Shown here: positions 1 through 4,563 of the stretch, piece by piece
Position numbering within the stretch: position 1 is the first letter of the stretch
Layout: each line of letters starts with the position of its first letter
Source of the DNA: a virus
IMG/VR virus record: IMGVR_UViG_3300005515_000057
Coordinates: 1-23,577 of that record
Reading direction: 5' to 3' (one strand)
Length of the DNA stretch: 23,577 nucleotides
The notes under the pieces: model-generated
What the model was told of the DNA's origin: nothing
The model's database searches: none
What the model saw: the letters and a program-made list of their open reading frames with translations, nothing else
Position numbers and translations under genes: made by a program

Positions 1-117
1 CTGGGGTGCGTTTCGCACACCGTACTGCCACAGGACGACACCAAACGGTGAGCTAAGCATGTAGAACTGGGGATGGAGTGCCTTCGGACGGCGGTTCAAT
101 TCCGCCCACCTCCACCA
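1..117 (+). ncRNA. ssrA: tmRNA, 3' portion (5' end outside window)
   Basis: The segment ends in the tRNA-like domain of tmRNA: a T-arm GGCGG-TTCAATTC-CGCC, the 3' half of the acceptor stem and an encoded CCA (115-117). The upstream stretch containing AAACGGTGAGCTAAGCATGT matches the conserved 3' region of bacterial tmRNA. tmRNA with SmpB rescues stalled ribosomes. The tag-coding part and 5' half lie before position 1. A P4-type integrase follows 165 bp downstream on the same strand, the usual arrangement for elements inserted in ssrA; the 3' end may therefore be the copy supplied by the phage attP. Confidence 0.93.
92..117 (+). other. probable prophage attachment site in the 3' end of ssrA
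   Basis: This is inferred from the adjacent integrase and from the common use of the T-loop to CCA segment of ssrA as attB/attP identity. The core would run from the T-arm to the CCA end. The second copy that would prove it must lie beyond the right edge of the window, past the head, lysis and early genes. Exact core limits cannot be set from one end. Confidence 0.6.
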
Positions 118-281: not shown

Positions 282-1499
282 ATGCCTCTGACCGACGCTG
301 CCATTCGTCGCGCCAAGCCTGCCGCCAAGCCACAAAAGCTGGCTGACGGCGGTGGCCTGTTCCTCTTCATCACCGTTGCCGGCGCCAAGAGCTGGCGCTG
401 GAAGTACCGCGTCGCCGGGAAAGAGAAGCTGCTAACCCTCGGCCTGTACCCGGACGTGAGCCTGGCCAAGGCGCGGGAGGCCCGGGAAGATGCTCGGCGA
501 CTGCTGGCCAGCGGCGTAGATCCCAGCGAGCAGCGCAAGGCCGCAGCTGCCACGAAGGCCGCCGACCGTGTCGAGAGCTTCGAGGTCATCGCGCGCGAGT
601 GGCTGGCCGGGCGGCCATGGGTGCCGGGCTATCAGAAGAAGGTCGCCGCTTGGTTCGAGAAGGACGTGTTCCCCTTCCTGGGCTCACGCCGCGCCGCAGA
701 TCTCAAGGCGTCGGACTTCCTACAGGTCGCCCGCCGTATGGAGGCCCGTGAAGCCTTCGAGTCGGCCCATCGAATCATGCAGAACTGCGGCCAAGTCATG
801 CGTTATGCCGTGGCCACCGACCGAGCAGAACGAAACCCGGTAGCCGATCTGCGCGGCGCCCTCGTCCCGCCTCCGGAGAAGAACCACGCTGCGGTGGTGG
901 ACGCGGTGCAACTCGGCGGCCTGCTGCGCGCCCTTCAAGGCTACCACGGCACACCCGTTGTCCAGGCCGCACTGAAGCTGGCGCCGATGCTGTTCGTTCG
1001 CCCAGGCGAGTTGCGGCAGGCGGAGTGGACAGAGGTGGATCTGGATGCAGGCCTCTGGAGCATCCCGGCTGCGCGCATGAAGATGCGGCAGGCCCACATC
1101 GTGCCGCTGGCACGACAGGCGGTCGAAGTTCTCAAGGAGCTGCAACATGTGACCGGTCACGGCCAGTACGTGTTCGCCGGCGGGCGTAGCGAAAAGCGAC
1201 CCATGTCAGAGGTGGCAGTGCTGGCGGCCCTGCGGGTCATGGGTTTCGACAAGAACACCGTCACCGGCCACGGCTTCCGGGCGACCGCTCGCACCCTGCT
1301 GGATGAGGTGCTGGGCTTCCGCCCGGACATCATCGAGCACCAGTTGGCGCACGCGGTGAAGGATCCGAACGGGCGCGCGTACAACCGCACCACGCACCTG
1401 GTGGAGCGGACGAGGATGATGCAGGAATGGGCGGACTACCTTGACCGGCTGCGCACCGGCAACGTGGTGCCGCTACGGCCCGGTCAGGCTGCGGCCTGA
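282..1499 (+). CDS. int: P4-type tyrosine integrase
   Basis: This is a 405-residue tyrosine recombinase that would integrate and excise the prophage at ssrA. Residues about 1-85 (LTDAAIRRAKP..., then LADGGGLFLFI) form the DUF4102 arm-binding domain typical of P4-like integrases. About 100-195 is the SAM-like core-binding domain, and about 205-385 is the catalytic domain. The catalytic set is visible: R240 (LFVRPGELRQ), a beta-hairpin lysine K267, H330 and R333 (HGFR), H357 (LAHA) and nucleophile Y367 (GRAYNR). Length is normal for the family and nothing is broken. It reads away from ssrA, and the next gene downstream is convergent with it. The ATG at 282 has no good ribosome-binding site; the start is chosen because DUF4102 begins immediately. 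Confidence 0.96.
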   Translation: MPLTDAAIRRAKPAAKPQKLADGGGLFLFITVAGAKSWRWKYRVAGKEKLLTLGLYPDVSLAKAREAREDARRLLASGVDPSEQRKAAAATKAADRVESFEVIAREWLAGRPWVPGYQKKVAAWFEKDVFPFLGSRRAADLKASDFLQVARRMEAREAFESAHRIMQNCGQVMRYAVATDRAERNPVADLRGALVPPPEKNHAAVVDAVQLGGLLRALQGYHGTPVVQAALKLAPMLFVRPGELRQAEWTEVDLDAGLWSIPAARMKMRQAHIVPLARQAVEVLKELQHVTGHGQYVFAGGRSEKRPMSEVAVLAALRVMGFDKNTVTGHGFRATARTLLDEVLGFRPDIIEHQLAHAVKDPNGRAYNRTTHLVERTRMMQEWADYLDRLRTGNVVPLRPGQAAA

Positions 1500-1902: not shown

Positions 1903-2331
1903 CTAGCCGTCAAGTTGTGCCATGACAGTCTCCTTCCACTTCAACTGCAGCACGTCCGTGCCTGCCAGCTGCTTCTTGTGGACCTGCAGCAGCACACCGA
2001 AGGCCTTGCCAACCTCAGTTGGGCACCACTGCCCGTCCCGCTTTTCCTGCAGCCCGCGTTCGGCCAGGAGGCGGTTGAACTGCTGCGGAGAGAGACACCT
2101 GCGGCGGCCCAACTCGGTGGGCGTGTAGCACCTAACGCCGTCCACGTGCACGGCGACAGGGCCGGGCGACAGAGAAGGTGAAAATGGTCGCTGTGGAGCT
2201 TGGTTCGCGGCGGCCAGAAGGCCGGACACTGGAATCTGCGTGGCTTCACTCAAATGAGACAGTGAAACCTGTTCCAACTTGGGAAATTGCGTCAGGTCGA
2301 TAGTTGGACTAACTTCATGATTTTGCTTCAT
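1903..2331 (-). CDS. protein with KilA-C / phage antirepressor-type C-terminal domain
   Basis: 142 residues from the ATG at 2331, which has CGGAG eight bases upstream. The open frame continues to a TTG at 2403 with no signal. Residues about 68-142 resemble the KilA-C domain of phage antirepressors: a CYTPTELGRR segment, then LSPQQFNRLLAERGLQ, QWCPTEVGKAFGVLL, and LQLKWKETV. In the family this domain accompanies Ant/Rha-type proteins that bind DNA or oppose repressors. The N-terminal 65 residues are unrecognised and Pro/Ser-rich, and there is no BRO or KilA-N domain. A regulatory role in the phage is inferred. It is divergent from a strong promoter at 2373-2400 and ends at a hairpin. Confidence 0.72.
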   Translation of the reverse strand: MKQNHEVSPTIDLTQFPKLEQVSLSHLSEATQIPVSGLLAAANQAPQRPFSPSLSPGPVAVHVDGVRCYTPTELGRRRCLSPQQFNRLLAERGLQEKRDGQWCPTEVGKAFGVLLQVHKKQLAGTDVLQLKWKETVMAQLDG

Positions 2332-2372
2332 TTCTATGGCTCCGAGACACGGAGACATGAACCACCAAGGCG

Positions 2373-2400
2373 TTGACGTTATTATGAAACTAGATAAGAT
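2373..2400 (+). promoter_or_regulatory. predicted sigma-70 promoter driving the candidate sRNA
   Basis: TTGACG (2373-2378), a 16-bp spacer and TAAGAT (2395-2400) lie in a locally AT-rich patch of otherwise GC-rich DNA. Expected start of transcription is near 2407. There is no good ORF downstream before a strong terminator at 2521-2559. A -10-like CATAAT lies on the opposite strand inside the spacer (2386-2381) and could serve the divergent KilA-C-like gene, so the two units may compete. Confidence 0.6.
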
Positions 2401-2406
2401 CAACGT

Positions 2407-2562
2407 CGTCCCACACTGCCGAAGACTCGGCGGTCTAGGACGGAAGCACAGATCGATGTCGAGTTGATCTGCGCTTCTCTTGGCGGCAATGCCGCCGCTT
2501 CAACTGTGGTCGAATTGCGCAACCCTGGGGCAGACCTGCGAAGTAGGCCCCAGGGTTTTGCG
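2407..2562 (+). ncRNA. candidate structured small RNA (~155 nt)
   Basis: It is bounded by the promoter at 2373-2400 and the terminator at 2521-2559 and contains no credible coding sequence. Three further hairpins can be read directly. The first is 2416-2422/2427-2433 (GCCGA-AGAC-TCGGC core). The second is CAGATC/GATCTG, 2449-2454 with 2466-2471. The third is GGCGGC-AAT-GCCGCC, 2482-2496. Promoter, three local stem-loops, terminator and lack of an ORF are the signature of a trans-acting or regulatory sRNA. It starts about 75 bp from the divergent KilA-C-like gene. I do not recognise a named family, and the target is unknown. Confidence 0.55.
2521..2559 (+). terminator. intrinsic terminator of the candidate sRNA
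   Basis: AACCCTGGGGC (2521-2531) pairs perfectly with GCCCCAGGGTT (2547-2557), followed by TTGCGTTTTG. The T-rich tail is only on the plus strand, so it ends plus-strand transcription, although the nearest plus-strand protein gene upstream is the integrase, more than 1 kb away. This supports a separate short transcript. Confidence 0.82.
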
Positions 2563-2805
2563 TTTTGTCGGCAGTAGTAACTTGTGGTTTCCATAACCGA
2601 CAGCCACAAGATAGTGACCCTCTAGGGGGCCGTCAACGCAAAATGTAGGGAATTTGGCGAACCCCTTGCGCCGTAAGGATTCGCTGCAGACGGCGTCCGA
2701 CGAATGGTCTAGACCAGCTTGAAAGCCTTGCGCAGTCAAGGTCTCGGGGGACCACTATGCTGCGACGACGGGGCTCGAAAAACGGAACAGTGCCCTGGCG
2801 AACGC
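2563..2805. other. stretch without a supported gene
   Basis: I see no convincing gene here. A minus-strand open frame (2500-2739, TTG start) has a protein-like middle (FCVDGPLEGHYLVAVGYG) but runs through the terminator hairpin and has no ribosome-binding site; it may be a gene remnant. A perfect 12-bp palindrome, TGGTCTAGACCA, lies at 2705-2716. Composition is less GC-rich than the structural genes. Confidence 0.4.
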
Positions 2806-3138
2806 TTAAGCTCTCCCGCGCTTCGCAAGTGTCTTTTCGACACGTAACCGATCAATCTCTGCCCGGAGACGATCCTGGTGCCGGATGACCCACAACTCCG
2901 CGCCGATGACGCCCTGCCCGTAACTCGTACATTCTCGCGTCGTCCAATGGCTCCGGTCGGAACGATGCGTGTTGAGGTCGGCGAACCACCCTCCCCCGTT
3001 GATGCGCTCGCACAGCCGCAGCACCTGCGTGCCGTCGCTGAAAACGCTGTCGTCCTTCCCGTCAGGGCGGGAGGCCACGGAGCGCCAGTGGAAGTCGGGA
3101 GGGAGCATGGCGCGGAATCCTACGGGTCCGGCTCTCAA
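2806..3138 (-). CDS. hypothetical protein, start uncertain (possibly 5'-damaged)
   Basis: 110 residues if started at the TTG (3138), or 100 from the ATG at 3108 (MLPPDFHWRS, AGGA ten bases upstream). Visible features are a Trp/Gly/Asp-rich middle (INGGGWFADLNTHRSDRSHW) and a charged C-terminal helix (DRLRAEIDRLRVEKTLAKRG). No family is recognised. The same frame stays open upstream, through about 3300 and into the end of the BLUF gene. It encodes protein-like sequence (SITGETPPTGG, then LQLDAARIRRAG and DFLRIREADIPKPP) but has no ATG, GTG or TTG. An ATA at 3273-3271 followed by ACG GGG GAG sits where a start might once have been. It lies downstream of the BLUF gene on the same strand and may share its transcript. 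Confidence 0.5.
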   Translation of the reverse strand: MRAGPVGFRAMLPPDFHWRSVASRPDGKDDSVFSDGTQVLRLCERINGGGWFADLNTHRSDRSHWTTRECTSYGQGVIGAELWVIRHQDRLRAEIDRLRVEKTLAKRGRA

Positions 3139-3338: not shown

Positions 3339-3761
3339 TTACACCAAGTAAGGAGCGGCCAGGGAAGCCAGCCTCTCGACCCCGTTTGGGGAAGTCCTAG
3401 ACCCCGCCTTACGCCGGGTCAAGTTCGTCCAATCGCTGAAGGCGGCCTCCTTCAACTGCGTGTCCTCCACTGGTATCCAACGCATGGACCAGTAAGGCAT
3501 GCGGCGCTGGGAAACGCTGCCCCGCGCGAGCTCGATCACGTCGGTGTGCAGACGGGAATAGACGATGCGGGAATAGATCACCGCCAAGCCGTCGTCCGGC
3601 CCCTCGATGTACTGAAGGAACCTCCTGCCGTCGAACAGCAGAAGGCCAGTCACACCCGCCAACTGGTTATGGGTGATGGACCGCTGAACCATTCGCTCGA
3701 GCCCGTCCGTGCCCAAGTCAGGGACCGCCTCACTGGCGTACGCGATTGCTTGCAGCGCCAT
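3339..3761 (-). CDS. BLUF-domain blue-light sensor (single domain)
   Basis: 140 residues from the ATG at 3761, which has AAAGGAG eight bases upstream. The open frame runs further upstream, but only this start begins with the BLUF fold. Residues 1-95 form a BLUF domain, which binds FAD and switches its hydrogen bonding in blue light. Diagnostic residues are present: Y8 (QAIAYASE), N32 (HNQLAGVTGLLL) and Q50 (FLQYIEG), plus W91 and M93 at the end of the domain (YWSMRW). About 45 residues follow with no recognised effector domain, so it would act through a partner, as short BLUF proteins do. It is divergent from the SRAP gene across a 136-bp spacer. Carriage by a prophage suggests a light-linked conversion trait, which is inference. 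Confidence 0.9.
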   Translation of the reverse strand: MALQAIAYASEAVPDLGTDGLERMVQRSITHNQLAGVTGLLLFDGRRFLQYIEGPDDGLAVIYSRIVYSRLHTDVIELARGSVSQRRMPYWSMRWIPVEDTQLKEAAFSDWTNLTRRKAGSRTSPNGVERLASLAAPYLV

Positions 3762-3897
3762 GCCGGCTGCTCCTTTGCTGGTTGGTCCCCCCCGGGGAGT
3801 TCGACGGTACGCCCAAGAAAAGAAACATGGCGTGATCGACCAGCATTGTGCACGGCGTGCGAACGCCGGTGGTGCGCCAGTGGAATATGGTGACGCC
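3762..3897. promoter_or_regulatory. divergent intergenic region between BLUF and SRAP genes
   Basis: Both genes are transcribed outward from this 136-bp spacer, so both promoters should lie here. It holds a perfect inverted repeat CGGCGT-GCGA-ACGCCG at 3853-3868, 29 bp before the SRAP ATG, a plausible operator. I found no convincing -35/-10 pair and no LexA box by eye. A C-run/G-run (3787-3796) precedes the BLUF ribosome-binding site. Confidence 0.4.
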
Positions 3898-4563
3898 ATG
3901 TGCGGCCGATTCGTCCAGACCCCGATCCGAGACGCCGCCAGCCTGGGCTTCCCCCAGCTGGTGGGCGACCTGCTGTCCATGCCGGCCAGCTACAACCTGG
4001 CGCCGACGCAGCGCGCAACCGTGGTGCTCGATCGCGGCGAGGGCCTGCAGGTGCAGCGGCTGGCCTGGGGCCTCCTGCCGTTCTGGGCAAAGGCGAAGGG
4101 CCTGCAAGGTTCGACCATCAATGCCCGCATTGAGACCGTGGCCACGAAGCCGGCGTTCCGCAGCGCGTTCAAGGCGCGCCGCTGCCTGATTCCGATGGCG
4201 GGCTACTACGAGTGGTCCGTGAACCCAGACGACAACGGCAAGGACCCATGGTTCATCCACGCAGCGACGCCGCTCTGGGCGGCCGGCCTATGGGAGGACG
4301 CCAGCAAGCTGCTCGGCCCCGACAACCTGGGCACCTTCACCGTGATCACGCGCGACAGCAGCGGCGTCTCGGCTGATATTCACGACCGCATGCCGGTGTG
4401 GCTGGCGCCCGGCCAGGCCGAGGAATGGATGAAGGCCGACGCCGACGGCGCCATGGCCATGTTGCTGGCCAGCGAGCCGCCGGCGATGGAGGCCTATCGC
4501 GTCAGCCGGGCGGTCAACACGCCGCGCTACAACGCCGAGGAACTGCTGCAGCCGGTAGCGTGA
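3898..4563 (+). CDS. SRAP-family abasic-site processing protein (YedK/HMCES-like)
   Basis: 221 residues from the ATG at 3898. The start is fixed by MCGRF, because the family requires C2 at the new N-terminus after Met removal; upstream codons of the long frame are spurious. SRAP proteins crosslink to abasic sites in single-stranded DNA through a thiazolidine on C2 and shield replication forks. All key residues occur at near-canonical positions: C2, N33 (YNLAPTQ), N75 and R77 (INARIET), E105 (GYYEW) and H162 (DIHDRMP). It is therefore probably active. The ribosome-binding site is weak (GGTG). It is divergent from the BLUF gene and upstream of a secreted-protein gene on the same strand. It could be host-derived cargo or protect phage DNA. 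Confidence 0.95.
   Translation: MCGRFVQTPIRDAASLGFPQLVGDLLSMPASYNLAPTQRATVVLDRGEGLQVQRLAWGLLPFWAKAKGLQGSTINARIETVATKPAFRSAFKARRCLIPMAGYYEWSVNPDDNGKDPWFIHAATPLWAAGLWEDASKLLGPDNLGTFTVITRDSSGVSADIHDRMPVWLAPGQAEEWMKADADGAMAMLLASEPPAMEAYRVSRAVNTPRYNAEELLQPVA

Follow-up and report, generated by a model that had tools for sequence, protein, structure and literature searches.

A structured RNA of Stenotrophomonas prophages that may act as a cis-encoded antisense repressor of an antirepressor-like gene

Comparative sequence evidence confirms that Stenotrophomonas prophages encode a structured small RNA (sRNA) with a predicted length of about 160 nt. We regard it as probable, from sequence comparison and folding models, that this sRNA (2407-2566, plus strand) is a cis-encoded antisense RNA which represses the antirepressor-like KilAC gene next to it (2331-1903, minus strand), and that this gene is thereby probably kept off. 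Comparison between related phages supports the fold of the sRNA, its strand, its promoter and its terminator, as well as a copied promoter on the minus strand, a hairpin at the ribosome site of the gene and a covarying long-range helix. The sign of the control we infer from modelling, and an input by NrdR from resemblance.

The whole stretch of DNA analysed here, hereafter the window, comprises the 23,577 bases of a virus record and begins with the following feature.

1-117, plus strand: 3' end of the host tmRNA gene (ssrA), the attachment site, with the exact prophage junction at 117/118

Bases 1-117 have the same letters as the tmRNA 3' end in a Stenotrophomonas genome and the sequences diverge exactly after base 117, which indicates a prophage inserted in ssrA. 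The ssrA end is followed by an integrase gene (282-1499, plus strand), a small minus-strand gene and then, also on the minus strand, genes for tail and head. A BLUF (blue-light, FAD) domain protein is encoded in the window (3339-3980, minus strand; Pfam E 1.8e-19) and in the relative L024 (1943-2449, plus strand; Pfam E 6.4e-21). The window also contains a 110-aa ORF (2806-3138, minus strand) which has a look-alike in L029 and is without Pfam or NCBIfam match. In relatives, the DNA-damage genes SRAP (SOS-associated peptidase) and UmuC-like polymerase flank the module (L002 1591-2523, plus strand; L019 2124-3374, plus strand).

The sRNA, its promoter and its parts are located as follows; type A denotes the RNA of the window and of the relatives which carry the same RNA.

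2373-2400, plus strand: sigma-70 promoter of the sRNA, TTGACG-16-TAAGAT (GTTGAC...ATAAGATCAAC kept in 10/10 type-A records)
about 2407-2566, plus strand: predicted type-A sRNA, recognised by its fold z, the same fold in homologues, covariation, G-U bias and model match
2407-2442, plus strand: P1/H1, the basal helix with H1
2443-2477, plus strand: H2
2480-2497, plus strand: H3
2516-2566, plus strand: terminator hairpin

A preliminary description of this DNA had proposed a near-consensus promoter, three stem-loops and a strong terminator. The promoter is present, and with 9 of 12 consensus bases "near-consensus" was slightly generous; two promoter-like sites were found in the 1.6-kb region versus 0.2 expected. 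The stem-loops and the terminator lie where they had been placed. The minimum free energy of the sRNA is -82.6 kcal/mol (z = -6.2), a value as low as which was reached by none of 200 shuffles, and the strong terminator stem is conserved in all relatives. The U tract of 2516-2566 is interrupted (UUUUGCGUUUU), for which reason a simple terminator scan missed it. Rfam returned no family at gathering score and none in 2300-2720 even at E<=5, only the tmRNA on the whole window, and no match to the RNAs of the relatives. This Infernal/Rfam covariance search, proposed as a check, agrees with the earlier statement that no named RNA family was recognised. The stretch, described earlier as free of protein genes, indeed holds no known protein family: two ORFs, of 69 and 79 aa, span it mechanically on the minus strand, and a family search with the 79-aa ORF gave no match. 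A small ORF inside the sRNA was considered and rejected, since plus-strand ATG ORFs of at least 18 codons are not common to the relatives, in line with the earlier view that the stretch holds no credible ORF.

With the neighbouring minus-strand protein as query, five viral contigs were found, four of which carry a homologous RNA; DNA identity to these contigs across the sRNA region is only about 71%. Further relatives were collected among viral contigs and bacterial genomes using a conserved block downstream of the sRNA as probe. Type A comprises nine further records (L002, L003, L004, L005, L011, L014, L018, L019, L025), and the comparison within it rests on only 8 distinct, related sequences. 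All nine homologues have both promoter and terminator, in agreement with the proposed phage-borne sRNA with signals of its own. Three contigs (L006, L013, L015) and a S. geniculata genome (L037, listed with one of them as L015/L037) carry at the same place a different RNA of similar four-hairpin architecture, type B. A third, shorter and unrelated RNA of about 90-110 nt, type C, is found in L016, L017, L024, L026 and L029. Each type-C RNA has a promoter and a terminator, the promoter reading TTGACA-17-TATGAT in most.

With a covariance model of the type-A RNA, 10/10 type-A records were matched at E<1e-25; five loci of types B and C were also tested and none matched. Across 91 genomes of Stenotrophomonas species the model gave two weak, coding-sequence-like matches only, and the type-A RNA thus appears to be phage-borne and rare. 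Searches of phage and plasmid collections and a protein search of genome contigs gave no match. A scan with the promoter pattern alone picked out five viral contigs without block and without sRNA, which were judged to be chance hits.

Nine type-A members folded singly show the same order of elements: basal helix with H1, H2, H3, linker and terminator. Aligned, 97.3% of cells are paired and seven pairs show double (compensatory) changes, with a covariation score reached by 0/500 shuffles; the alignment of related prophages suggested in the preliminary description as a search for compensatory changes hence came out in favour of the RNA. Within the conserved helices, plus-strand G-U occurs in 60 cells versus A.C in 3, which argues for selection on the plus-strand RNA.

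The gene beside the sRNA had been called KilA-C/antirepressor-like, which its fold supports and its sequence supports weakly.

1903-2331, minus strand: KilAC-like (antirepressor C-terminal) gene, 142 aa, weak by sequence and better by fold

Weak matches to the ANT/KilAC domain occur in 8/8 aligned members (best E 9.4e-4) and to PHROG Ant with a best E of 2.8e-4. Residues 61-142 form a predicted C-terminal domain (pLDDT mostly about 90) which has a fold match to viral antirepressors at E 4.8e-4; KilAC has a winged-helix-like fold. Sequence and fold searches of the PDB gave no significant match. An in-frame upstream start is possible at 2358. The gene at this place is KilAC-like in types A and B, and a KilA-N domain gene in type C (checked in L029). 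Antirepressor activity of a KilAC domain without KilA-N or the Ant N-terminal part is putative.

On the far side of the sRNA lies a promoter which points back across it towards this gene.

2608-2636, minus strand: promoter TTGACG-17-TATCTT, nearly a copy of the nrdA promoter of the host and predicted to transcribe the KilAC-like gene
2637-2650, minus strand: NrdR-box-like element A, on the upstream side, CCCTACATTTTGCG (in the host CACTACATTTGGCG), found at the same position in host nrdA promoters
2604-2616, minus strand: NrdR-box-like element B, overlapping the -10, CACTATCTTGTGG

The conserved block is found upstream of nrdA (class I ribonucleotide reductase) in chromosomes of Stenotrophomonas and Luteimonas, for example in L036. 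Phage block and host nrdA promoters are 79-84% identical over about 160 bp, and -35, -10 and NrdR-box-like elements agree almost letter for letter. The promoter of the KilAC-like gene therefore appears to have been copied from the host chromosomal nrdA. As in NrdR-controlled nrdA promoters, for which two boxes 14-17 bp apart at the promoter are the rule (PMC12051234, PMC4409342), two 16-bp box-like elements of a sequence common to host nrdA lie 17 bp apart in the window, one of them over the -10. A DnaA-type box lies upstream in most relatives (6/9 type-A members checked); the window has none within one mismatch. Unlike the host promoter, the phage copy faces a KilA-family gene, and most type-A relatives retain only half of one of the NrdR boxes. 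By this resemblance, the promoter may be active in the phage, NrdR may bind the box-like elements, and NrdR and DnaA may control it. A literature search on NrdR with prophage and Stenotrophomonas found no paper.

Since this nrdA-like promoter lies beyond the sRNA and points at the gene, the KilAC-like mRNA should begin near 2601; between sRNA and gene no conserved promoter was apparent by eye. The sRNA sits between the promoter (2636-2608) and the gene, its whole complement is contained in the predicted leader, and it would thus be antisense to a leader of about 270 nt. The sRNA had been described as divergent from the KilA-C gene, which is not simply so. The near-copy of the nrdA promoter, the antisense leader and the mimicry by H3 described below are absent from the preliminary description.

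Three elements of the predicted leader bear on the start of translation.

2479-2498, minus strand: anti-H3, the leader segment complementary to sRNA hairpin 3, forming a covarying 19-pair helix with 2350-2369
2350-2369, minus strand: initiation region imitated by H3 (CUUGGUGGUUCAUGUCUCCG), including an upstream AUG at 2358
2332-2362, minus strand: hairpin hiding the ribosome-binding site (CUCCG-loop-CGGAG), immediately 5' of the start codon

H3 resembles the initiation region of the KilAC-like gene (CUUGGUGGUUCAUG...), and the two change together: L018 has CUUGAUGG and L019 CCCGAUGG, each at both sites. As local alignments between H3 and the initiation region are individually weak, the case for mimicry rests on covariation. 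Within the minus-strand mRNA, anti-H3 and the initiation region form a helix of 19 pairs with one bulge, in which 90.8% of cells are paired and six pairs show double changes; none of 500 shuffles reached its score, and pairing drops to 23-49% when the partners are slid by 1-3 columns. Where H3 and the mRNA copy differ, G-U pairing in the mRNA is kept 17 times and broken 4 times. Beyond type A, the leader helix stands out in the type-B contigs L006 and L015, not in L013, and is weak in type C. Direct duplexes between sRNA and initiation region did not exceed shuffles, but the windows used ended at -40 and so did not contain the motif.

The ribosome-site hairpin is found in 7/7 distinct relatives with a sequence differing in each, and 0-5 of 300 shuffles were as stable. 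The long-range helix occupies its 5' arm. When the antisense region was blocked to mimic the sRNA, every member was predicted to adopt the hairpin. In 9/9 members the ribosome site of the free leader is predicted to be at least as accessible as that of the sRNA-bound leader, with small margins in the window (0.33 free versus 0.30 bound) and similarly in L005 and L019; these predictions, on which the direction of control rests, come from energy models without pseudoknots or kinetics.

These findings suggest the following mechanism. Without sRNA, the long-range helix of anti-H3 would open the ribosome-site hairpin and the KilAC gene would be translated. With sRNA, H3 as a copy of the initiation region would tie up anti-H3, the hairpin would re-form and translation would stop. 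Made steadily, the sRNA would contribute to maintaining the lysogen and, should a related phage enter, could silence that phage's copy of the gene; a surge of leader transcript may overcome the sRNA.

The sign could also be the opposite, which we consider unlikely: the leader alone would hide the upstream AUG and the initiation region by means of anti-H3, and binding of the sRNA would free them and activate the gene. Indeed, the CUUGGUGGUUCAUG initiation region pairs with anti-H3 in most free-leader folds, and the upstream AUG is somewhat more accessible with sRNA bound in 8/9 members. However, the main ribosome-binding site is less accessible when sRNA is bound, the long-range helix reaches into the arm which hides this site, and in L003, L011 and L018 the upstream AUG opens only a frame of 7-8 codons; the window, L002, L005 and L019 have this AUG in the reading frame of the gene.

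Action in trans, with the sRNA mainly targeting a host or phage mRNA or binding a regulatory protein and the antisense overlap being incidental, seems still less likely. Like trans-acting sRNAs, this sRNA does have a promoter and a terminator of its own, and its loops vary on a conserved scaffold, but H3 covaries specifically with the initiation region of the neighbour, both changing together in L018 and L019, and the position beside the same gene is kept. Where prophage control or regulation of a host target had been proposed, the evidence now favours a cis-antisense switch over a host target.

We think it improbable that the inverted repeat of H3 and initiation region serves, instead of as an RNA element, as an operator in the DNA, recognised by a phage repressor or by the KilAC protein. 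Inverted repeats that change together between phages would fit operators as well, as would the winged-helix-like fold of KilAC; yet in the sequences examined the best further occurrences of the repeat are scattered matches with 3 mismatches, G-U tolerance of the differences is confined to one strand (17:4), and one of the two copies falls within an RNA hairpin which is strand-specific. Chance structure in non-functional intergenic DNA is hardly credible given z = -6.2 together with covariation and conservation in phages which are only about 70% identical here.

The cis-antisense reading most likely combines the logic of Inc RNA and repZ of IncI-alpha plasmids with a function like that of P22 sar or P1 c4. 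In the repZ leader (ColIb-P9 type), too, an antisense RNA from the opposite strand is fully complementary to a long leader; translation can start at a downstream ribosome site only with long-range pairing in the leader, and the antisense RNA disrupts this pairing when it binds (PMC9977716). Here, pairing and hairpin covary, with a small predicted effect on access in the window; as for repZ, the predictions include an upstream reading frame and a concealed ribosome site. The systems differ in that the target here is KilAC-like and not a replication initiator, the module is prophage-borne, and the four-hairpin sRNA has no sequence match and no plasmid match. The sar RNA of phage P22 is a small phage antisense RNA which represses an antirepressor gene at translation (PMC12197685), but it measures 68/69 nt, whereas the present RNA has about 160 nt, four hairpins and a leader overlap, and no Rfam match. 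The c4 RNA of P1/P7, a structured phage RNA, acts around the ribosome-binding site to repress synthesis of the antirepressor; it varies from phage to phage and determines heteroimmunity (PMC12197685). Unlike the present RNA, with its own promoter on the opposite strand and no Rfam match, c4 has 77 nt and is listed as trans-acting. The antisense RNA STnc6030 of prophage BTP1, from another phage and host, is a precedent for superinfection exclusion by a prophage antisense RNA (PMC7067206); exclusion is a possibility here.

Tentatively, and as a doubtful extension of antisense repression, the module may be a two-key induction switch. A captured host nrdA promoter would link the antirepressor-like gene to the host dNTP/replication state, paired with an exchangeable antisense RNA, of three kinds at the same spot, which imitates the initiation region. 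Such a switch would sense DNA-synthesis stress and carry RNA-coded immunity specificity.

Enterobacterial phages, P22 and P1 among them, already provide examples of antisense control of antirepressors. Stenotrophomonas phages apparently possess an independent version, built like plasmid copy-number control, with a mimic of the initiation region and a host-derived nrdA promoter. If true, nucleotide supply and prophage induction would be connected in a way open to direct testing, and immunity would have an RNA-coded specificity readable from the sequence.
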